Below are positions 3,966-19,993 of a DNA stretch of 23,218 nucleotides, one piece after another. The position numbers and the translations under genes were made by a program. The notes under the pieces are model-generated. The model was not told the origin of the DNA and did not search any database. It worked only from the letters and a program-made list of their open reading frames with translations. Source of the stretch: a virus; IMG/VR virus record IMGVR_UViG_3300030102_000566, positions 7,038-30,255 of that record. One strand, written 5' to 3'. The stretch's first letter is position 1; every line of letters starts with the position of its first letter.

Positions 3966-6127
3966 TAGCCTCTCCTACCGTCTGGTCTAAAGTCTACTCG
4001 TGTAGTACCAAGTTGCCATTGTACACCTACATCTTCACTAGCTATTTTAAAGTTCATTTGTCTACCTCTAGCTCTAACAAATACTTGATTAGTGTATTGG
4101 TCAATGCTAGCAGTAGTTACCACATCTCTTGATAGAGTATTGCCTGTAGCATCAGAAGTACTATTAGCAGCTCCTGGAAAGTTCCTAACGCCTACTGTTA
4201 CTTGTACTTCTGGAGTTAAAGCAGTTCCTTGTGCAGTCGCAGTATCAGAGTTGGTAAAGTTTACATCAGGTATAACTCTCTTAGTTAATACAAATTGTTC
4301 ACCATCTTCTATACCCATATCTCCTGATTCAATAAAAGATTCTATGGCAGTTGGAGTTGCACCAGGAGTTTCTACATTGTCTTTACCATCTTCATGTTTA
4401 TATACATAGCCATTGAAAGTAGCTAATGGAAATTTAATAGTTCCAGGATTAGCCCATGAAGTTCTTGTTAAATTACCAAAATACCAAATTTTTTCTTCAT
4501 AATTAAATATAACATATCTATCTACACTGTTAGAACCACTTGAACAATAGAACCATATAATCTCGTTAAACTCACTATTAAGTCCTGCAAAATTTAAAAA
4601 ACCATTTTCTTTATTCATATCTTCAAATACATACTGTTTTAAAGTACATGGTAATGTATTAACTCTACCATCATAGGCGAAGAATTTATCTGCTCCCATC
4701 CAATAAACAACATTGTTAGCCTCAGCCACTACTTTAGGGCCAATAATGTTGATACTGTCACTAATCTCTTGTAAAGCAAATACTTCTTCTGTACCTAAAA
4801 ACTGTAGGCTTGATAGTGCTGTATCAGTAAAGATAAGAACCTCTTGTCTAGTTCTAAATCCAGTAATAATTTGAGAACCTTGTTTGACTCTTAAAAACCC
4901 TGCTGAGTTAGTTACTTCAGGTTTCCACTCTGTAGGCTCTGGTCCTACAGTAGCATCTACATTAGCAAATCTAATAAGTAGTGGGTCAAGTGTTCCAGAA
5001 TAATCTACACTTACATAACTACCTGTAGTGGTAGCGTTACTACCTGGGTCATAAGGTAGAGTAATTGTAAAGGTAGTGCTTGATGGCACAGTCAATACTT
5101 GAAACTCTCCTTGATATACTTGAGGTGCTTGACCAGTAAAATCTACCCAATCATATACACTTAGACCATGTCCTGACCCTGTGGTTACTGTTGCAGTTGT
5201 ACCAGACCTAGTAATACTAGATATAGATTGTCCTGCTGTAGTGCTACGACCAAAAGAAGTACAACTAAGAGCTAGTAAATGCCCACTTGCTGCAAACATT
5301 ACTTTACCTACTTGTTCTGGTACTGCTCTAGAACCAACTACAGTATTAAGTTTAACGGCACGATTACTAATATTAGCGTCATAGTCAAAGAAAAATATAT
5401 CTGAGTCTTGTATGTTGTATATAACATCATTATTAAATTGGTCTTGAAATGTTAATCTAGCTGGAATAGCAACAGGAGTGGTTGCACTAGAACCCCATGT
5501 ACCTCTACCCCATGTGCCTGCACTCCAGCCATAACCAAAAGTTATTGTAGAAGCACCGACAGGATGTTGAAAAGCTGCAACTATACTTGTGCCACCACCT
5601 GCAGAAACTGTGGAGGTAGCAGCAGCAGCTACAGTAATCTCAAAGGTATTATTTGTAACATTAGCTATTTTAAATTCTGTGTTTAAGTTAGCAGCTGATA
5701 CTCCACCAACCGCAGCAGAACCACTAAAAGTAACATAGTCACCATCTGAGCCACCATGACCTGTGATTGTCACCACAACCGTAGTTGACTCGTCCGTAGT
5801 TTTAAAACAATTATCTGTTGATGGGGTAGTAGCTGATGTGTAAGTAATTCTCAAAGGGGTTATGTCAGTAAGAGCAGTTCCTTTAAGAATATAATTTTTT
5901 TCATTAGTAGCAATACTAATTATCTCATTATTATCTGTTGTGCCGTACTGTATAATACTGCTAGCATCGCCTACAAAAGGGGTTATATTGATTGGAGTCC
6001 AACCACCTATTTTTTCAGGGTATCCTTGTCTAAATCTTATTTTATCGCAGTTATACCATCCGCCATCAGAAGAGTAGTTACTTCTATCTCTATTTATCCC
6101 TGGCTGAAATACAAGTTTCTTTAACAT
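3965..6127 (-). CDS. Tail nozzle / tubular protein, P22 gp10 (phage stabilisation protein) type
   Basis: This 720-residue protein is probably the tail nozzle below the connector ring of a short-tailed phage. Features of the P22 gp10 group are the N terminus FQPGINRDRSNYSSDGGWYN followed by KIRFRQGYPEKIGGW, and a C terminus with VFVRARGRQMNFKIAS and WQLGTTRVDFRPDGRRG. Between them is propeller-like material such as EVLIFTDTALSSLQFLG and NNVVYWMGADKFFAYDG. Two beta-sandwich-like insertions are visible, at about 115-185 (GGSDGDYVTFSG) and about 300-385 (GSGHGLSVYDWVDFTGQ). Their similar HG..DYV/DWV cores suggest related domains. A WGRGTWG motif is at about 206-212. The ATG follows a GAGAGGG site at the end of the endolysin gene. 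Family assignment is fairly secure; exact assembly position is inferred. Confidence 0.8.
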   Translation of the reverse strand: MLKKLVFQPGINRDRSNYSSDGGWYNCDKIRFRQGYPEKIGGWTPINITPFVGDASSIIQYGTTDNNEIISIATNEKNYILKGTALTDITPLRITYTSATTPSTDNCFKTTDESTTVVVTITGHGGSDGDYVTFSGSAAVGGVSAANLNTEFKIANVTNNTFEITVAAAATSTVSAGGGTSIVAAFQHPVGASTITFGYGWSAGTWGRGTWGSSATTPVAIPARLTFQDQFNNDVIYNIQDSDIFFFDYDANISNRAVKLNTVVGSRAVPEQVGKVMFAASGHLLALSCTSFGRSTTAGQSISSITRSGTTATVTTGSGHGLSVYDWVDFTGQAPQVYQGEFQVLTVPSSTTFTITLPYDPGSNATTTGSYVSVDYSGTLDPLLIRFANVDATVGPEPTEWKPEVTNSAGFLRVKQGSQIITGFRTRQEVLIFTDTALSSLQFLGTEEVFALQEISDSINIIGPKVVAEANNVVYWMGADKFFAYDGRVNTLPCTLKQYVFEDMNKENGFLNFAGLNSEFNEIIWFYCSSGSNSVDRYVIFNYEEKIWYFGNLTRTSWANPGTIKFPLATFNGYVYKHEDGKDNVETPGATPTAIESFIESGDMGIEDGEQFVLTKRVIPDVNFTNSDTATAQGTALTPEVQVTVGVRNFPGAANSTSDATGNTLSRDVVTTASIDQYTNQVFVRARGRQMNFKIASEDVGVQWQLGTTRVDFRPDGRRG

Positions 6128-6128
6128 A

Positions 6129-6503
6129 TTAGCCCTCTCTTTTTAATTCAAAATGAGGTCCATCTTTAAATGATTTCCACGAACCACCCCACACATAAGG
6201 AATGTTAGTAAGTTTTGATGCTTGGCTAAAAGCAACATTAATAGTTTTATAGTCTTCAAACTCCCAAGATACTGCACCATCTTTCCATGCATATACATCT
6301 ACCGCATGTCCTGTAAGATGCCTTGAGTTCATAGTTTGACTTTTACCATCATCAAATAATTCTTTTTGTCTTTCTTTACTACGCAACCCCTCACTAATAC
6401 CAAAGTCAATAGTTGACAGACCTATAGCATTTTTAACCAACTTTTGTAAATCTGGATTTACTTCATCTAGTTTAGCTAATGATTTCTTAGATAACTTAAA
6501 CAT
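6129..6503 (-). CDS. Endolysin, M15 family D-Ala/L-Ala-D-Glu peptidase
   Basis: This 124-residue enzyme should cut the peptide part of peptidoglycan at the end of infection. It carries the zinc site of the M15 (VanY/VanX, Peptidase_M15_4) group: SRHLTGHAVDV gives S60-x-H62-x-x-G65-x-A67-x-D69, and GPHFEL supplies the third ligand His117. The segment GISEGLRSKERQKELF is the usual substrate-side region before the first motif. Length is normal for a single-domain phage endolysin, and no cell-wall-binding domain or signal peptide is seen, so it needs a holin for export. Its ATG overlaps the holin stop as TAATG. Confidence 0.88.
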   Translation of the reverse strand: MFKLSKKSLAKLDEVNPDLQKLVKNAIGLSTIDFGISEGLRSKERQKELFDDGKSQTMNSRHLTGHAVDVYAWKDGAVSWEFEDYKTINVAFSQASKLTNIPYVWGGSWKSFKDGPHFELKREG

Positions 6504-6880
6504 TACTTAGTGAATTTTCCTATTGATTTAAGCCCGAAAGAGGCACCAATACTAGCCATTATAGACCACTGTAACCATTCTGGAAATGTAGCTAAGAATT
6601 GTATACCCTCAGCAACAAAAGGTTGAAAGTAAGGTATGAAGCTAAAAATTATAATAGCTATGAAAGTCAGCGTCCATGCTTCATCCTTCCAGGAATCATC
6701 AGAAGCCTTTGCCATGGCGGTTTCCCACTCAACTTTACCTTCTGCAACTTTCTTTTTTACTGCTGTTTTAGCTTCTATTTCGGCTATTTTTAATTCAGAC
6801 TTTGCGACTGACTCTTTGCCTTTGTGCTCAAAGTATCCTCCAACCGCTTTACTTAAGCCATTTACAATCAATCCAATCAT
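6503..6880 (-). CDS. Holin, GTA-type three-TM family
   Basis: This 125-residue inner-membrane protein is the likely holin that releases the adjacent endolysin. The N terminus has a short hydrophobic segment (MIGLIVNGLSKAVGGYF). A charged Lys/Glu helix spans about 20-60. SWKDEAWTLTF then leads into hydrophobic segments at about 69-84 and 92-120, split by PFVAEGIQF and PEWLQW. This matches the GTA_holin_3TM pattern (SWKDE.W, F.P, PEW, GLK), best known in alphaproteobacterial gene transfer agents and phages. It is coupled by TAATG to the endolysin, the expected lysis pair. It follows a 65-base gap, the longest between genes on this side of the window. Confidence 0.82.
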   Translation of the reverse strand: MIGLIVNGLSKAVGGYFEHKGKESVAKSELKIAEIEAKTAVKKKVAEGKVEWETAMAKASDDSWKDEAWTLTFIAIIIFSFIPYFQPFVAEGIQFLATFPEWLQWSIMASIGASFGLKSIGKFTK

Positions 6881-6945: not shown

Positions 6946-7131
6946 TTAAGTTGCTTGTTCTAAAGCGACTAACTGCTCTTGCCAATTCCCATTAGGATTA
7001 GCAACAGGTTTATGAACATCTCTAGCTTCTTCTAAAATTTCAATATATTTTAGTAAGTCTTTTGACTCACAACTATCGTTTGCTTGTAGATATTTTTTTA
7101 CTTTACTAATTATTTTTTTATTTGTTGTCAT
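6946..7131 (-). CDS. Small helical protein, unknown
   Basis: The ATG at 7129-7131 overlaps the TGA of the upstream oxygenase as ATGA, so I chose it over an upstream start that would add eight residues (MDERETIR). The 61-residue product opens MTTNKKIISKVKKYLQANDS. A second helix, KDLLKYIEILEEARD, is followed by a Pro/Asn turn and a last helix, QEQLVALEQAT. It is charged and soluble, with no metal motif or membrane segment. As the last gene of the oxidative island it could be a partner of the enzymes or a simple passenger. I do not recognise a family. Confidence 0.55.
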   Translation of the reverse strand: MTTNKKIISKVKKYLQANDSCESKDLLKYIEILEEARDVHKPVANPNGNWQEQLVALEQAT

Positions 7132-7697
7132 ACGAATTGTCTCCCGTTCATCCATGCAACTACTGCATGTCGTTGTCCCTCATATACAGTTTCACAACCA
7201 TGTAACGTGCTAGAGGGGAATACGATAATATCACCTTTTTTCTGAGGAGGAAAGAACTTCTCTCCACTACCATTAAGTATATAAAATAACCCACCTTTGA
7301 AACCATCATTTATTATAGTAATACATGTTAATTTTCTAACATACTCTTGATTTTGTGCAAAAGAATAATCTACATGCGTTGTATACTTGCCATTACGAGC
7401 ATATATTAAATATTCAGACTGACTACAAAAAGTTATATCATACTTCCAGTTTTGAAAATTAGCATCTAACGCAGCAGCTATTAGATAAGAGGTAACACCT
7501 GTGTAAGGCGGTAAGTCTATCTTCTTTACATCCCGTACTTTTTTATCAACCAGCTCCTTATTTTTACCATCTGTTTTACCACTGGTGGTTTTTGCGTTTT
7601 GGTATTTGTTTACAAAATAATCACATACATCATCAGGTATACCTTGGTCATTCTCATACACCCAACAAGGAACAATTATATTCTTAACCTCCTTCAT
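7128..7697 (-). CDS. 2-oxoglutarate/Fe(II)-dependent oxygenase, prolyl hydroxylase-like (third of three)
   Basis: The 189-residue enzyme shows the full facial triad of the 2OG-Fe(II) oxygenase fold: THVD gives His108 and Asp110, and STLHGCE gives His166. Arg176 in EGQRHAVVAW is placed to bind the 2-oxoglutarate carboxylate. Between them, FKGGLFYI and KKGDIIVFPS match the GG.L and G....FPS strands of prolyl-4-hydroxylase/PKHD-type proteins. Such enzymes hydroxylate amino acids, lipids or small molecules while decarboxylating 2-oxoglutarate; the substrate cannot be read here. The start overlaps the end of the previous oxygenase by 14 bases, with GGGAGG just upstream. Sequence outside the motifs is quite different from the two neighbours, so this is not a recent duplication. 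Confidence 0.85.
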   Translation of the reverse strand: MKEVKNIIVPCWVYENDQGIPDDVCDYFVNKYQNAKTTSGKTDGKNKELVDKKVRDVKKIDLPPYTGVTSYLIAAALDANFQNWKYDITFCSQSEYLIYARNGKYTTHVDYSFAQNQEYVRKLTCITIINDGFKGGLFYILNGSGEKFFPPQKKGDIIVFPSSTLHGCETVYEGQRHAVVAWMNGRQFV

Positions 7698-8334
7698 TTT
7701 TAGCCTCCCAATTAAAAAAGTGTGTTACGCAGTATCTACCATCCCCGAACTTTGCATCACTATCCATTTTCACAGGATATACTTTATGCCCTAAATAACT
7801 AGGAAACATAACCATTCTATTCGGTATGCACTTTATTCGTCTATTAGCCTCAGTAAGACAAAAATCTCCACCTTTGAACTTCTTAGGTTCTTTGTAAAGC
7901 CAGACAAGAAAAGTAAATTGTGTGCTATCTTTGTGCGATTTATACTCCTGCTCATGGTCGTAATAACTAACCATAGTAGAATCAGTATTTGTATTTATGT
8001 AATTGTTATGATGAAGAGGCATAGCTTTCTCTACAATCTTTTTAAATTCCTCAGATTGTTGTTTGTATAGAGCCTGTAGTATATGTGAAAACTTTCTACC
8101 TTTGATTGTGTAGGTATCCCATAGATAAAAACGAAAAGCATTTGACTTTGACTCTCCTTTTAAATCTTTAGCCACAATGGTGTTTTCCGCTTTCTCAATA
8201 GTGGCTACCTCTCTACTAGAATAAAAATCAAGTTCTTTCCATATAAGACCTAACTCCTCTTCTGTGTACCAATTATCAATAATAATATGAGGATATAGGG
8301 GGTCTCTAGCAGTTTTTATTTTCCATTGTTTCAT
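7684..8334 (-). CDS. 2-oxoglutarate/Fe(II)-dependent oxygenase (second of three)
   Basis: A 216-residue protein with the double-stranded beta-helix motifs of prolyl-4-hydroxylase-like 2OG-Fe(II) oxygenases. YKSHKDSTQFTF supplies His134 and Asp136, FKGGDFCL is the conserved GG-D/E-F strand, and PNRMVMFPSYLGHKV supplies distal His183. Arg200 in DGRYCVTHFFN is the likely 2-oxoglutarate anchor. The N-terminal third (PHIIIDNWYTEEELGLIW) is the usual entry helix of this fold. The start forms an ATGA overlap with the previous oxygenase. The N terminus differs from cyanophage-type short forms in having a longer helical insert at about 80-115. The substrate is unknown. Confidence 0.86.
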   Translation of the reverse strand: MKQWKIKTARDPLYPHIIIDNWYTEEELGLIWKELDFYSSREVATIEKAENTIVAKDLKGESKSNAFRFYLWDTYTIKGRKFSHILQALYKQQSEEFKKIVEKAMPLHHNNYINTNTDSTMVSYYDHEQEYKSHKDSTQFTFLVWLYKEPKKFKGGDFCLTEANRRIKCIPNRMVMFPSYLGHKVYPVKMDSDAKFGDGRYCVTHFFNWEAKNEGG

Positions 8335-8840
8335 AAGTAATTAATGTTAAAGTTTACTCTTCTAGGAACGTCAGTACAGTTAGTACTAGCATGTGGCTTA
8401 CTAGAATCAAAAAATAACATCCTATTAGCTATAGATTCTATCTTTGTACCATCTCCTAACACAGTAAAACCATTACAAGTATTTAGGTAAAATATAGCAC
8501 CTTTGTGAGGTTCGTCTTGGTCAACGTGCATTTGATATGTAATTAAGTTCTCAGTCTTTGGAAATAAATTAGCTTTTGCTCTAATTAACTTTTGTATATT
8601 TATCTTGGAAAATATTAATTCTTCTAGTGTATATATAAACTCACTAAGTCGTGCTTCTTCATCATAAAAATTATGCATGAAATAAAACCCGTCAGACTCC
8701 CCTTTTGTATCTCTTGTGCCTACATGACCTGCAAAATACCAAGGAAACCAAATATGACCTGAGTCATATAAAAATATGTCCTCTACTAATTTAAATTCTT
8801 CAGGAGGTAAAAAGTTGTCAACTACTTCGGGCTCTCTCAT
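8331..8840 (-). CDS. 2-oxoglutarate/Fe(II)-dependent oxygenase (first of three)
   Basis: A compact 169-residue oxygenase. YQMHVDQDEPHKGAIFYLN carries His105 and Asp107, NRMLFFDSSKPHAST carries distal His150, and RRVNFNINYL has the C-terminal Arg (160-161) for 2-oxoglutarate. The N terminus (VVDNFLPPEEFKLVEDIFL) is the usual helix before the core. This short form, with H-x-D followed by a short strand and GGT-like turn (VLGDGTKIE), resembles 2OG oxygenases often seen in marine cyanophages. The start codon lies inside the end of the desaturase gene (23-base overlap), so the two are translated together. Substrate not deducible. Confidence 0.84.
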   Translation of the reverse strand: MREPEVVDNFLPPEEFKLVEDIFLYDSGHIWFPWYFAGHVGTRDTKGESDGFYFMHNFYDEEARLSEFIYTLEELIFSKINIQKLIRAKANLFPKTENLITYQMHVDQDEPHKGAIFYLNTCNGFTVLGDGTKIESIANRMLFFDSSKPHASTNCTDVPRRVNFNINYL

Positions 8841-9588
8841 TTAATCTCTCTAGTTTTTTTAGTAAGTTTATTAAAAACTTTATGTGGTCTATTTCATACC
8901 ATTTAACAGCTATTGTCAAGTTGCCTGGGTCAGCGTGATGATTGTTGTGGTATGGATGCATCAAGATAAAAGGAAGATGTATGTTTCTTGAGTTATCATC
9001 AGTTTCAAAGTTTTTATATCCAATTTTGTGCCCAAATACATTAACCCACGATGCTGCATGTAGTGAGTATACTGCAGGTAAAGCGAACAAATATAATGCT
9101 AGTTTAATATTTACTATCATAAATAACACTACTACGCTCCAGTATATAACGTAATAATACTTTTTAATAAATACATGTGCTTTATCTTTGATTAATTTTT
9201 TAATCAAACCTGAACTAATTTGAGAGTTTTTTTCTGTACCAATCCAAAACCAAGTACGCCAGCCATTCTCAGCAGGGTGTGGGTCTCCGTCTACATCTGA
9301 ATACTTGTGATGTGTAGAGTGGTTTGCTGCCCATATCATAGGTGGTCCTTGTAAACCGAAGATAGCACAAGTGTTTAAAAACAACTGTAAAGGTCTAGTT
9401 ATGGTAAAAGCACCATGAGATAAATACCTATGACAATACCCCTCTATACCTAACTTTGCAAAAAATATAATACCAATCAAAGTAAACCATAAATAATTTA
9501 TATCCCATAAATAAAAAAGACCTATAATAGTAAATAGGTGCATGACTGCTTGAGATACTAATAATTTATGGTGGTCTGCTAATTTCAT
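8818..9588 (-). CDS. Membrane fatty acid desaturase (acyl-CoA/acyl-lipid, delta-9 type)
   Basis: This 256-residue integral membrane enzyme has all three histidine boxes of the stearoyl-CoA-desaturase-like family: HRYLSH (53-58), HSTHH (90-94) and HNNHH (214-218). WVNVFGHKIG (181-190) gives the extra Asn/His ligands near the di-iron site. Hydrophobic segments lie at about 9-27, 33-47, 67-83 and 143-178, matching the usual four-TM layout with the boxes facing the cytoplasm. It would place a double bond in a host acyl chain using O2 and reductant. It is slightly shorter than common bacterial members, and no fused cytochrome b5 or ferredoxin is present, so electrons must come from the host. It is linked by ATGA to the cupin-like gene and overlaps the first 2OG oxygenase. 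A metabolic gene inside the tail/lysis region is unusual. Confidence 0.9.
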   Translation of the reverse strand: MKLADHHKLLVSQAVMHLFTIIGLFYLWDINYLWFTLIGIIFFAKLGIEGYCHRYLSHGAFTITRPLQLFLNTCAIFGLQGPPMIWAANHSTHHKYSDVDGDPHPAENGWRTWFWIGTEKNSQISSGLIKKLIKDKAHVFIKKYYYVIYWSVVVLFMIVNIKLALYLFALPAVYSLHAASWVNVFGHKIGYKNFETDDNSRNIHLPFILMHPYHNNHHADPGNLTIAVKWYEIDHIKFLINLLKKLERLNERARSS

Positions 9589-13766: not shown

Positions 13767-14108
13767 TTAGTTTCCTAATGGGTTGTCATTAATAATATCG
13801 TATACTTTAGATAGTTCTCTTTCCATCCAAGCAGCTAATTCATCTTCCATATCATTCATTTCTGCATCAAGTTTCTCAAAACTTTCCCAAATATCATCAA
13901 TGTTATCACTGTTGAACTGTAGTCGTTCTTCTGCTTGAGTTAATCTGTCATTTAATGTACCCGTGTCACTACTAGCTATTTTACCTTCCATAGCCACTAA
14001 ACGTGTGCTTAGGTCTGACATCCACCATACGAACCCACCTGCGGCTGGCACCACCGATAAGATTATCGTAAGCATCACTGCTGGCGAGAGCACCAATGTC
14101 TTGCTCAT
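13767..14108 (-). CDS. Membrane-anchored coiled-coil protein
   Basis: A 113-residue protein with one N-terminal membrane segment (about 9-30, VMLTIILSVV and GGFVWWM) and a long charged helix from about 32 to 108 with heptad-like pattern (LSTRLVAMEGK, LNDRLTQAEERL, WESFEKLDAEMNDMEDEL). No cleavage site follows the hydrophobic stretch, so it is likely a signal anchor. AGGAG stands eight bases before the ATG. The first 128 bases lie inside the 3' end of the upstream secreted-protein gene in another frame. The shape recalls i-spanin, holin-like or immunity proteins. Its pairing with two exported proteins suggests an envelope role, which is inference. Confidence 0.65.
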   Translation of the reverse strand: MSKTLVLSPAVMLTIILSVVPAAGGFVWWMSDLSTRLVAMEGKIASSDTGTLNDRLTQAEERLQFNSDNIDDIWESFEKLDAEMNDMEDELAAWMERELSKVYDIINDNPLGN

Positions 14109-15471
14109 ATATATTCTCCTGTGTCAATGACACTGTTTCTTGTATTGTAATTGTTTGTGGTATTACTTGCAAATACACCATTGTTGTAATGTTTATCTGT
14201 CCTAATTTATCAGCGTTTGTAGCAGGTTTTTTAACTTTAGCCACAACTTTTGGCTTGTTAGTTTTAGTTGTTTTATTAGGGGTGTTTTTGGCTGTTTGCT
14301 CTTTAACACCATCTTTCTTTTTAGTTTTGCTGTCTTTAGATTTACTTTTTTTGACGACTTTACTTTCGTCACTTTTGACTTCGGCTTCACTGGAGTCTGA
14401 TAACTCGCTGTTTTCATTTCCCTCAACCTCTGATTCTGCCGTTTGTTCTGTTTCATTTTGGCTCTCCTTAATATCTTCTTCCATATTTTGTTCTTTTAAT
14501 TCTTCTGGAGTCTCTAACTCAACTTCAGCGATTTCTTCAACCACAGGCTCGCTAACCTCAATTTCTTGAATCTCCTCAACCACTTCAATCTCAGGAACTT
14601 CTACAGGTATCTCAGGGATATCTACAGAAATCTCTGGCACTTCAATATTCATAGATACCTCAGGAACTTCGGGAGATATCTCACTAACCTCAGGTAAATC
14701 TGGTAAGTCAGGTAATGTAGGTATTTCAATAGCTACAGGTTGTAATATTACATCATTAACAATCTCTGTGTCCAAAGTTAAACCCTCAATAAGAGTTTCT
14801 TCAATAATTACAATAGGCTCAACTACAATAGGTTCAACTACCAAAGGCTCAACTATTGGCTCAACTACAACAGGAGCTACATACTCTTCTATGGTCAAAG
14901 ATAAACTTAGATTATCAATAATAGGACCATACCAATTACTAGAATTACCTGTGTCATTACCTGTAATTGTTAGGTTTAATGAAGTATCGTCTGTATTAAA
15001 ATCACCTGTCACATCTTTAGTAAAAGAGTAACTTTCCCATCCATCTTCGTATGGCACAGCTACGGTTTCTGATAACACCTCTGATGTTGATTCAGTTGAT
15101 AAAGTAATGGTTGACACCACGGTATCATCAGCTCCAGCATTACACCATTGACTGCCACTATTACCGCAACCAATAGAGTCAAAATTCATATTTATTTCTT
15201 TTATTAAATGATTCTCAGATACACCTGACATATCTACATCTTGACTGATATTACCGCCTTGGTATCTAAACCTTACACTCTTAGATGCTGAACCAGAATA
15301 AGTTGCAGGGTCTCTTTTAACCTTATCTTGGTTATTGTCTGAGAGTTCCCAACCACTGGTATCAGTAGTAAAATTTGGGTTATTTAGTAGGTTGTCCGTA
15401 GTAGTTTCTGCCCGAGCTGTTAATATGGACATGAATACTACCACGAGGGCCCACGATATTATTGTTTTCAT
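13981..15471 (-). CDS. Exported protein with CBM-like domain and long Pro/Glu-Lys stalk
   Basis: A 496-residue protein with a signal peptide (1-21, cleavage after ARA). A jelly-roll-like domain (about 26-193) starts with NLLNNPNFTTDTSGWEL, the usual first strand of carbohydrate-binding (CBM4/9-like) or discoidin-like domains. C102 and C110 could form a disulfide. Then come VEP repeats (203-219), VPEI-type repeats (about 250-300), an acidic part (about 310-370) and a Lys-rich part (about 371-417, KPK and KKP). The C terminus is VYLQVIPQTITIQETVSL plus a basic tail. The EP-rich then KP-rich stalk recalls the periplasm-spanning part of TonB. AGGA lies before the ATG. It overlaps both neighbours (92 and 128 bases). 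It might be an envelope-spanning or sugar-binding factor; function unknown. Confidence 0.68.
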   Translation of the reverse strand: MKTIISWALVVVFMSILTARAETTTDNLLNNPNFTTDTSGWELSDNNQDKVKRDPATYSGSASKSVRFRYQGGNISQDVDMSGVSENHLIKEINMNFDSIGCGNSGSQWCNAGADDTVVSTITLSTESTSEVLSETVAVPYEDGWESYSFTKDVTGDFNTDDTSLNLTITGNDTGNSSNWYGPIIDNLSLSLTIEEYVAPVVVEPIVEPLVVEPIVVEPIVIIEETLIEGLTLDTEIVNDVILQPVAIEIPTLPDLPDLPEVSEISPEVPEVSMNIEVPEISVDIPEIPVEVPEIEVVEEIQEIEVSEPVVEEIAEVELETPEELKEQNMEEDIKESQNETEQTAESEVEGNENSELSDSSEAEVKSDESKVVKKSKSKDSKTKKKDGVKEQTAKNTPNKTTKTNKPKVVAKVKKPATNADKLGQINITTMVYLQVIPQTITIQETVSLTQENIYEQDIGALASSDAYDNLIGGASRRWVRMVDVRPKHTFSGYGR

Positions 15472-15886
15472 CTATAATTCCTAGTTCTAAGTATTTAGCT
15501 TTAGCTTCTTTTCCTACTAAACCGTCTATAGGACAAGGGCTTCCTGCAGCAAGCATGGCTGTAAAAACTCTATCGTCTTGACATAAGATACTCGTAGCTG
15601 ACACTTTAAGCCCAAGTTGAGCAAGACTACGAGAAAGTTTTATTCTTTCACAATTTTTGTCAATCACGTGAGTTGCAAAAGAACCAGAGAATAATCCTGT
15701 ACCAATCGCTCCAGTTCGTACCACTATACAAACATCACTACCACTACCGATAGACAGCGATGGTGCTATGGCTGATGGTGGTGGTTGGTCTTTGTAACGT
15801 ATAGTTGTATCTGCAGCAAAACTATCAGTAACGTAGAGTAGCCACCAACTAAAAAGTAATATCGCAAGTGCAGTAGACCACCTCAT
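15380..15886 (-). CDS. Small exported four-cysteine protein
   Basis: A 168-residue protein with a clear signal peptide (1-24: ALAILLFSWWLLYVT then DSFA-A). The mature part has four Cys (53, 79, 102, 118), suited to two disulfides in the periplasm. The core DKNCERIKLSRSLAQLGLKV, then SILCQDDRVFTAM and GSPCPIDG, belongs to a family I remember from uncultured marine phages and pelagiphages with no assigned role. The last 92 bases overlap the signal peptide region of the next gene in another frame. There is no good Shine-Dalgarno at the ATG, so translation may depend on coupling with the gene just upstream. A lysis, exclusion or virion role is open. Confidence 0.65.
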   Translation of the reverse strand: MRWSTALAILLFSWWLLYVTDSFAADTTIRYKDQPPPSAIAPSLSIGSGSDVCIVVRTGAIGTGLFSGSFATHVIDKNCERIKLSRSLAQLGLKVSATSILCQDDRVFTAMLAAGSPCPIDGLVGKEAKAKYLELGIIDENNNIVGPRGSIHVHINSSGRNYYGQPTK

Positions 15887-19768: not shown

Positions 19769-19993
19769 TTATTTAAATAACCAAGTGGCTACAATCCCAG
19801 CAATTACGCCTAAGCCACTAAACATCCACAAAGCAACCTTACGGCCACCACTTAATTCAGATAAAGCCTTTTCTATACGGTCTATCTGAGTATCCATCTT
19901 GTCCACCTTTGAAATGATATGGTCTATATCTTTCTTCATATGGTCTATTTCAACTTGATGAACCGCTACTGTTTCTTGCACCTTATCTTCCAT
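19769..19993 (-). CDS. XhlA-like coiled-coil protein with C-terminal membrane segment
   Basis: A 74-residue protein. Residues 1-48 form a charged heptad helix (VHQVEIDHMKKDIDHIISKV, DKMDTQIDRIEKALSEL), then GGRK and a membrane segment at about 53-73 (VALWMFSGLGVIAGIVATWL). This is the architecture of the haemolysin XhlA / phage holin-associated family. It is well away from the holin-endolysin pair and lies among basic virion-like genes, so it may be a membrane anchor used in assembly rather than a lysis factor. Shine-Dalgarno is weak; its start closely follows the stop of the previous gene (TAAAATG). Confidence 0.68.
   Translation of the reverse strand: MEDKVQETVAVHQVEIDHMKKDIDHIISKVDKMDTQIDRIEKALSELSGGRKVALWMFSGLGVIAGIVATWLFK

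Follow-up and report, generated by a model that had tools for sequence, protein, structure and literature searches.

The lambda Rz/Rz1 spanin pair and the curli (type VIII secretion) modules of marine phages are the described systems closest to the locus reported here. According to one survey (PMC6139136), 91 of 677 phages of Gram-negative hosts had no spanin candidate, and a second study (PMC9599517) presents curli as a multi-gene exported module moving among unrelated marine phages, known in the phage group treated here from 9 of 80 recovered genomes. The window analysed, a stretch of 23,218 b out of a 30,255 b virus record, carries three overlapping genes, A, B and C; our literature search found no published description of the trio. 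As in lambda Rz/Rz1, the frames overlap out of phase by +1 and holin-like and endolysin genes lie near, and C looks like an i-spanin, with its predicted N-terminal transmembrane segment, a coiled-coil-like part that may be periplasmic and a weak match to an Rz-like profile. The window's trio differs, however, in having no outer-membrane lipoprotein partner and in comprising three larger proteins, two with non-lipoprotein signal peptides, and a sugar-binding-type domain. It resembles curli as a multi-gene exported module in unrelated marine phages, but the 40 trio records examined have no CsgG, and A, B and C match no Pfam curli family. A belongs by profile to phrog_20531, whose profile is silent on B, on C and on function. 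The first domain of B (residues 24–200) is modelled with the fold of CBM61, CBM16 and Fbs1 (VIA Z 13.7–14.9), at 12–21% identity, and differs from them in its setting at the head of a phage protein that is exported and has a long linker predicted to be disordered.

Gene organisation of the locus

The original prediction was of three genes overlapping by 92 b and 128 b in different frames, with the start and signal region of each downstream gene placed inside the end of the gene before it. All three reading frames lie on the minus strand at the predicted coordinates, and the overlaps of 92 b (A/B) and 128 b (B/C) are confirmed, each in the +1 frame; they contain the start and signal peptide of B and the start and transmembrane segment of C (Table 1).

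Table 1 Features of the trio and of the lysis genes in the window.
Feature	Position	Strand	Description
Gene A	15380..15886	−	168 aa; ORF; signal peptide, four invariant Cys, beta-hairpin and four helices
Gene B	13981..15471	−	496 aa; ORF and AlphaFold2; signal peptide, head, linker, short helix
Gene C	13767..14108	−	113 aa; ORF; N-terminal transmembrane segment, coiled-coil-like stretch, NPLGN C-terminus
A/B overlap	15380..15471	−	92 b; B shifted +1 relative to A; contains B start and signal peptide
B/C overlap	13981..14108	−	128 b; C shifted +1 relative to B; contains C start and transmembrane segment
Ribosome-binding-type sequence ACAGGAG...	14109..14122	−	Inside B, before C ATG; AGGAG in 37 of 38 copies
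Holin-like gene	6503..6880	−	By context; phrog_2524, unknown function
M15-type endolysin	6129..6503	−	Adjoins holin-like gene; phrog_465 1.1e-57; PF13539 2.5e-11

Virion genes lie on the capsid side of the trio, the capsid protein sharing 66% identity with its counterpart in Pelagibacter phage HTVC023P, and on the other side follow a repeat protein, an S74-type fibre gene and a glycine-rich fibre-like gene, then 2OG-Fe(II) oxygenase-like genes, a desaturase, and the holin-like gene with the M15 endolysin, so that C and the downstream holin-like gene stand 6.9 kb apart with other genes between them. From this position among virion genes, late expression of the set may be expected. The trio's place in the window between virion genes and the S74-type fibre gene would also suit structural proteins of the virion, belonging to its tail or fibres and having a hydrophobic N-terminus that is no export signal, but signal-type N-termini occur in nearly all A and B proteins, the Cys residues of A are invariant, C is predicted to be transmembrane, and lysis or replication genes are the neighbours elsewhere; we hold this reading to be highly improbable.

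The stretches 8818–9588 and 7128–8840 (both minus strand) hold a fatty acid desaturase (PF00487, 4.6e-14) and two 2OG-Fe(II) oxygenase genes, a third oxygenase match beside the desaturase being below cut-off, and desaturase-like genes (cluster 36, labelled by eye) are found near the trio in seven further non-redundant loci. Far from the lysis genes, at 19769–19993 on the minus strand, the window encodes a 74 aa coiled coil with a C-terminal transmembrane segment, XhlA-like at a score below cut-off (26 vs. 34.7 bits); a gene of similar size sits between C and the holin-like gene in relatives.

Conservation of the overlaps

IMG/VR scans gave 115 confirmed stretches for A, of which 80 were kept, and 49 loci for C; the IMG/VR profile scan produced at least 600 matches, with kept contigs of about 4 kb to 331 kb among the matches listed. 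The overlaps were compared in 37 distinct trio sequences from IMG/VR plus the window, four of these 38 (L029, L033, L040 and L104) having A cut by the contig end. The A/B overlap measures 92 b in 21 copies, 95 b in nine, 107 b in four, 101 b in three and 83 b in one, the B/C overlap 128 b in 36 with 134 b and 137 b once each, and the frame is always +1 at both. C starts with ATG in every copy, with AGGAG upstream in 37. The overlaps, which the original prediction proposed to look for in relatives, are present in all 38 distinct copies, window included, and the frame decay that it named as a refutation is seen in none of them. The B frame is open through the B/C overlap in 38 of 38 copies against 12% of recodings that preserve the C protein, the A/B overlap keeps its open frame in 38 of 38 against 11%, and the ATG and open frame of C are retained in 1.5% of recodings that preserve B, the copies being related, so that these counts are not 38 independent trials. 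On these comparisons the conservation of the overlaps exceeds chance.

Substitution patterns differ between the overlapping genes. Third-position change in C is 0.158 within the overlap vs. 0.368 outside it (24 sequences), and dN/dS in the B/C overlap is ~0.16 for C, indicating conservative evolution, and ~4.0 for B, which there mostly takes C's silent changes; pN of B is 0.091 in the overlap vs. 0.130 directly upstream. In the A/B overlap (16 sequences) the tail of A is relaxed (dN/dS ~1.15) and the signal region of B is kept (~0.52). Judged by these rates, the stronger protein-level constraint falls on the start of the downstream gene in both overlaps. Long overlaps are uncommon and the last 40 codons of B mostly follow C's silent changes, as they might if one of the three reading frames were a gene-calling artefact and not a gene; however, open frames and fixed ends persist in the 38 copies, and distant phages have all three as separate genes with little or no overlap, leaving an artefact scarcely credible.

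In distant relatives the gene order is retained and the overlaps are short or absent, or there are gaps. Counted by longest ORF, the B/C overlap is at least 100 b in 25 of 82 loci and <10 b in 48 of 82, long overlaps occurring in the window's clade and in a second group, centred on spring phage MW202481, whose B/C overlap comes to 143 b when longest ORFs are taken. The long overlap does not hold up as a defining feature, being confined on these longest-ORF counts to some clades; since distant relatives have a short overlap or none, it is a clade feature and not the essence of the set.

Conservation and distribution of the gene set

Of 83 non-redundant loci, 80 have a gene with an NPL tail after A. 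In the redundant set, 153 of the 157 A matches with at least 3 kb downstream have an NPL-ending ORF within 4.5 kb, against a background of 189 NPL-ending ORFs among 12,899 in the same loci, a count that includes the C genes. Where at least 4.5 kb lies upstream of A, an NPL-ending ORF is found upstream in none of 69 loci vs. downstream in 54, some loci being short on the downstream side. Whole-record searches placed C in 38 of 40 A-bearing records, and A and B stand upstream of C in all 33 loci with enough room among the 49 in which C was found. By sequence, A, B and C are one conserved exported set in the order A-B-C.

One branch has a shorter B of about 290 aa (L135, L138, L139, L173, L183, L185, L195, L201, L220, L222 and L227) and, on contigs of sufficient length, three more small exported-type genes between B and C, the first of them a spore-coat-U or pilin-like beta protein as judged by eye.

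Searching 50,697 GenBank phages by tblastn with four A queries returned 10, 11, 11 and 11 records, with a union of 11, all aquatic: the Pelagibacter phages HTVC023P, HTVC033P, HTVC115P, HTVC202P and Baldr, the kyanovirid Mosig, the Roseobacter phages CRP-207 and CRP-810, one Mediterranean Autographiviridae member and two spring phages. The GTDB collection contributed 24 loci, 21 of them from records titled metagenome-assembled, two on contigs from a single water bin and one from an isolate described as 'uncultured', and none of the 24 stood out as a clear bacterial chromosome copy. HTVC023P shares its phage group with HTVC027P, which is without A. Judged by the genomes that carry it, the trio is present on several unrelated phage backbones. 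A distant A-like exported protein is encoded by Achromobacter phage phiAxp-2 (L254, 44598–45155), which has a cultivable host; no NPL-tailed ORF was found in the 45 kb searched, and the trio is missing there.

Predicted products of the three genes

A had been described as a four-Cys exported protein and bears this out, with a signal-type N-terminus and four Cys that are invariant in 81 of 81 aligned members, among 12 invariant columns. On a hydrophobicity criterion only, 101 of 105 relatives have a signal-type N-terminus. A matches phrog_20531 (unknown function) at 2.2e-6 over residues 36–121, and this profile matches 17 of 18 A members. AlphaFold2 (mean pLDDT 77.5) predicts a signal helix, a disordered stretch, a beta-hairpin and four helices. 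Foldseek against the PDB gave no match at E ≤ 0.001, VIA against solved structures a best Z of 3.0 among 156 chains, none convincing, the PDB sequence search was empty, NCBIfam held no match, and BFVD returned only uncharacterised phage proteins, nine of them at E ≤ 0.001. In 22 of 105 relatives of A (L042, L045, L049 and L126 among others) the C-terminus looks like a transmembrane segment, which suggests that A may be membrane-anchored in some phages. The gene annotated as OmpA family at 4824–5579 of L238 is gene A.

B was predicted as a large exported stalk, of which the export and the long flexible stretch stand, but it is not a stalk alone, as it also has a sugar-binding-type head. A signal-type hydrophobic N-terminus is present in 85 of 89 relatives (hydrophobicity criterion only). 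AlphaFold2 is confident over residues 24–200, followed by about 260 disordered residues (207–464), an acidic and Pro-containing part and then a Lys-rich one, and by a helix at 465–484. In the predicted structure, residues 24–200 form a sugar-binding-type beta-sandwich by VIA, aligning with the sugar-binding domain of Fbs1 (2e31; Z 14.9, rmsd 3.7, 169 aligned), with CBM61 (2xom; Z 13.8, rmsd 2.8, 137 aligned) and with CBM16 (Z 13.7, rmsd 3.2, 140 aligned). The modelled head thus has a carbohydrate-binding beta-sandwich fold, a shared fold not being proof of sugar binding. One relative's B has a weak PF02018 match (0.0089, below cut-off), and the NCBIfam matches of B and C are all far under cut-off. 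In the window's clade and many pelagiphages the sugar-binding-type domain leads the B protein, and other phage groups have different exported heads, beta-rich or Cys-rich. A loose B-tail motif fits 48 of 89 B proteins vs. 120 of 3,435 ORFs of at least 100 aa; it does not fit the window's clade, and a common B tail is therefore only suggestive.

C agrees with its description as a membrane-anchored coiled coil in its predicted hydrophobic N-terminal segment and coiled-coil-type matches. It ends in NPL in 18 of 18 aligned members, one distant member having NPM instead. The Rz-like profile phrog_739 matches weakly (0.0023; 5 of 18 members), and C is the only one of the trio matched by PADLOC, weakly and in coiled-coil type. 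A 'lysozyme' label is carried by one gene each in the Roseobacter phages CRP-207 and CRP-810 (L235 3292–3873, L238 6210–6632), and both genes have a transmembrane segment and an NPL end. By sequence likeness these labels, on CRP-207 gp73 and CRP-810 gp51, are probably wrong and both genes C-like, and we rejected them as evidence for lysis.

Genes beside the trio

A single-family endolysin search (phrog_465) hit 6 of 40 records, one weakly, and under-detects, so mixed seeds were used; 'holin' seeds are holin-like by context, and among those compared with profiles that of L224 matches a holin family (6e-4) and that of the window a family of unknown function only. Across 55 non-redundant loci with at least 3 kb on both sides, an endolysin was found in 26, in 17 of these no more than 1 kb from the trio (L177 being counted with its trio end assumed), and was not detected with the nine seeds in 29. 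Its distance fraction has a median of 0.11 (26 loci; KS 4.5e-8 vs. uniform), and that of the holin-like gene, present in 16 of the 55, a median of 0.04 (KS 1.3e-4 vs. uniform). Because single linkage collapsed to 3 clusters, greedy clusters were used, and with one value per cluster endolysin proximity gave p of 2.9e-7 (22 clusters), 0.027 (9) and 0.058 (6) and holin-like proximity 2.2e-3 (12 clusters); the endolysin signal weakens as clusters become coarser, so shared ancestry contributes part of it. TerL, capsid and portal controls were uninformative at 1–2 loci each. The medians of polB (3 loci, 0.08) and of the S74 fibre (8 loci, 0.18; cluster test p 0.15, 0.047 and 0.24 at three thresholds) are also low, so other genes can be near the trio as well.

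Besides the window there are 37 near copies, of which 36 have at least 1.5 kb after C; 11 of these have a holin-like gene no more than 1 kb away and seven an endolysin no more than 1.5 kb away. With at least 4 kb after C (26 copies), the counts are 16 within 4 kb and 12 within 4.5 kb, respectively. In some near relatives the holin-like gene lies ~0.2 kb after C, and compact near copies have between the two a gene of 66–76 aa, mostly with a transmembrane-like stretch. In HTVC023P the M15 endolysin directly follows C, and in HTVC027P a homologous endolysin (2e-103) is preceded by other exported or transmembrane genes; by gene content, the slot before the endolysin looks as if it had been exchanged. 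In HTVC027P this slot (L250, 8980–10460) is filled by one gene for a transmembrane coiled coil, one for an exported protein and two small ones, none related to the trio at the sensitivity used. The trio of Mosig has primase and ribonucleotide reductase genes as neighbours, not lysis genes, and this, like the 6.9 kb between C and the holin-like gene in the window, speaks against a link to lysis.

Comparison with spanins and curli

The original prediction set the proteins apart from spanins. The window's A, B and C have no lipobox, and an o-spanin coexists with the trio in 9 of 40 records. For these two reasons we rejected the name of a two-component spanin pair. The signal regions of A and B contain no Cys for an o-spanin lipobox, the first Cys being at residue 53 in A and 103 in B; among relatives, a loose lipobox pattern fits three of 105 A proteins and eight of 89 B proteins, the window's not among them. 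Neither A, B nor C of the window combines an N-terminal lipobox with a C-terminal transmembrane segment, as a unimolecular spanin would. A lipobox scan returned no candidate in the window's record, none in HTVC023P and two weak ones from two relatives. In a freshwater phage (L042) an Rz-like gene and a lipobox gene closely follow the trio, and a model of this o-spanin, run against the 40 trio records, matches nine, in two cases with split and weaker matches, and none of the ten window-clade records of that set. Going by these matches, the cassette is compatible with spanins, and where an o-spanin is present it is not the sole envelope-opening system. In some marine phages, judging from the absence of candidates, it may replace them.

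Since curli genes are found in some phages of this group, we weighed a curli identity for the trio and rejected it, as CsgG (PF03783) occurs in 0 of 40 trio records vs. 4 of 14 control genomes. The trio could still serve surface display, adhesion or aggregation as a counterpart to pelagiphage curli, A and C anchoring a lectin arm that is exposed on infected cells or debris and gathers cells or glycans. The heads of B are lectin-type and otherwise adhesion-type, one branch has extra small exported genes, and curli is known in the phage group (PMC9599517) with CsgG in none of the 40 trio records; however, given 9 of 80 genomes with curli in the same study (PMC9599517), finding none in 40 records does not reach significance, the cassette has no gene that we could recognise as an outer-membrane pore or secretion gene, and the trio clusters with lysis genes. 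We judge display decidedly unlikely.

A candidate lysis-stage cassette

The original interpretation is partly supported, and the envelope role it proposed, with lysis among the possibilities, belongs to the supported part. Among lysis, exclusion and display, the clustering of endolysin and holin-like genes beside the trio makes us favour lysis, a functional reading drawn from position. We tentatively favour A-B-C as an envelope-spanning, lysis-stage cassette, on its predicted topology, gene neighbourhood and conserved tails.

Superinfection exclusion or receptor masking, in which the lectin-type B held by C and A would cover or alter a surface or periplasmic glycan and block adsorption or injection by other phages, would draw on the same exported set and on a sugar-binding-type head that varies between phage groups, and is in keeping with the o-spanins that coexist in 9 of 40 records and with the accessory nature of the set, HTVC027P being without A. 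The clustering with endolysin and holin-like genes and the position among virion genes argue against exclusion, and the weak coiled-coil-type PADLOC match of C is the sole match to a known exclusion or defence protein; we consider it unlikely.

As a lysis-stage cassette, A-B-C would be a mobile envelope module of aquatic phages that acts as an extra lysis component at the end of infection. C would sit in the inner membrane with its coiled coil facing the periplasm, A would be a disulfide-held periplasmic hub accepting C's conserved tail together with B's end, and B would span the periplasm, its head gripping either peptidoglycan or LPS as the host glycan. After cleavage of the wall by the endolysin, such a link across the envelope might tear the outer membrane, or help to fuse or open it. 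The long overlaps would pack the genes and may couple their translation, and the module would not need them. A membrane-bound A, to which the C-terminal segment of 22 among the 105 A proteins points, is not foreseen by the hub model.

Taken further, the cassette might be a third, non-lipoprotein route through the Gram-negative envelope at lysis, built from an inner-membrane coiled coil, its nearly invariant NPL tail docking on a disulfide-locked hub that bears a glycan-gripping arm, a proposal we regard as possible but doubtful; that abundant aquatic phages use this route in place of or beside spanins is part of the same reading and equally open to doubt. The cassette is a concrete candidate for outer-membrane opening, and it occurs in cultured SAR11 and Roseobacter phages. 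Across genomes, pieces of this one conserved module go under the labels hypothetical, lysozyme, tonB, OmpA family and carbohydrate-binding, and, if the lysis-stage reading is true, the trio would be a so far undescribed part of the phage bursting machinery.
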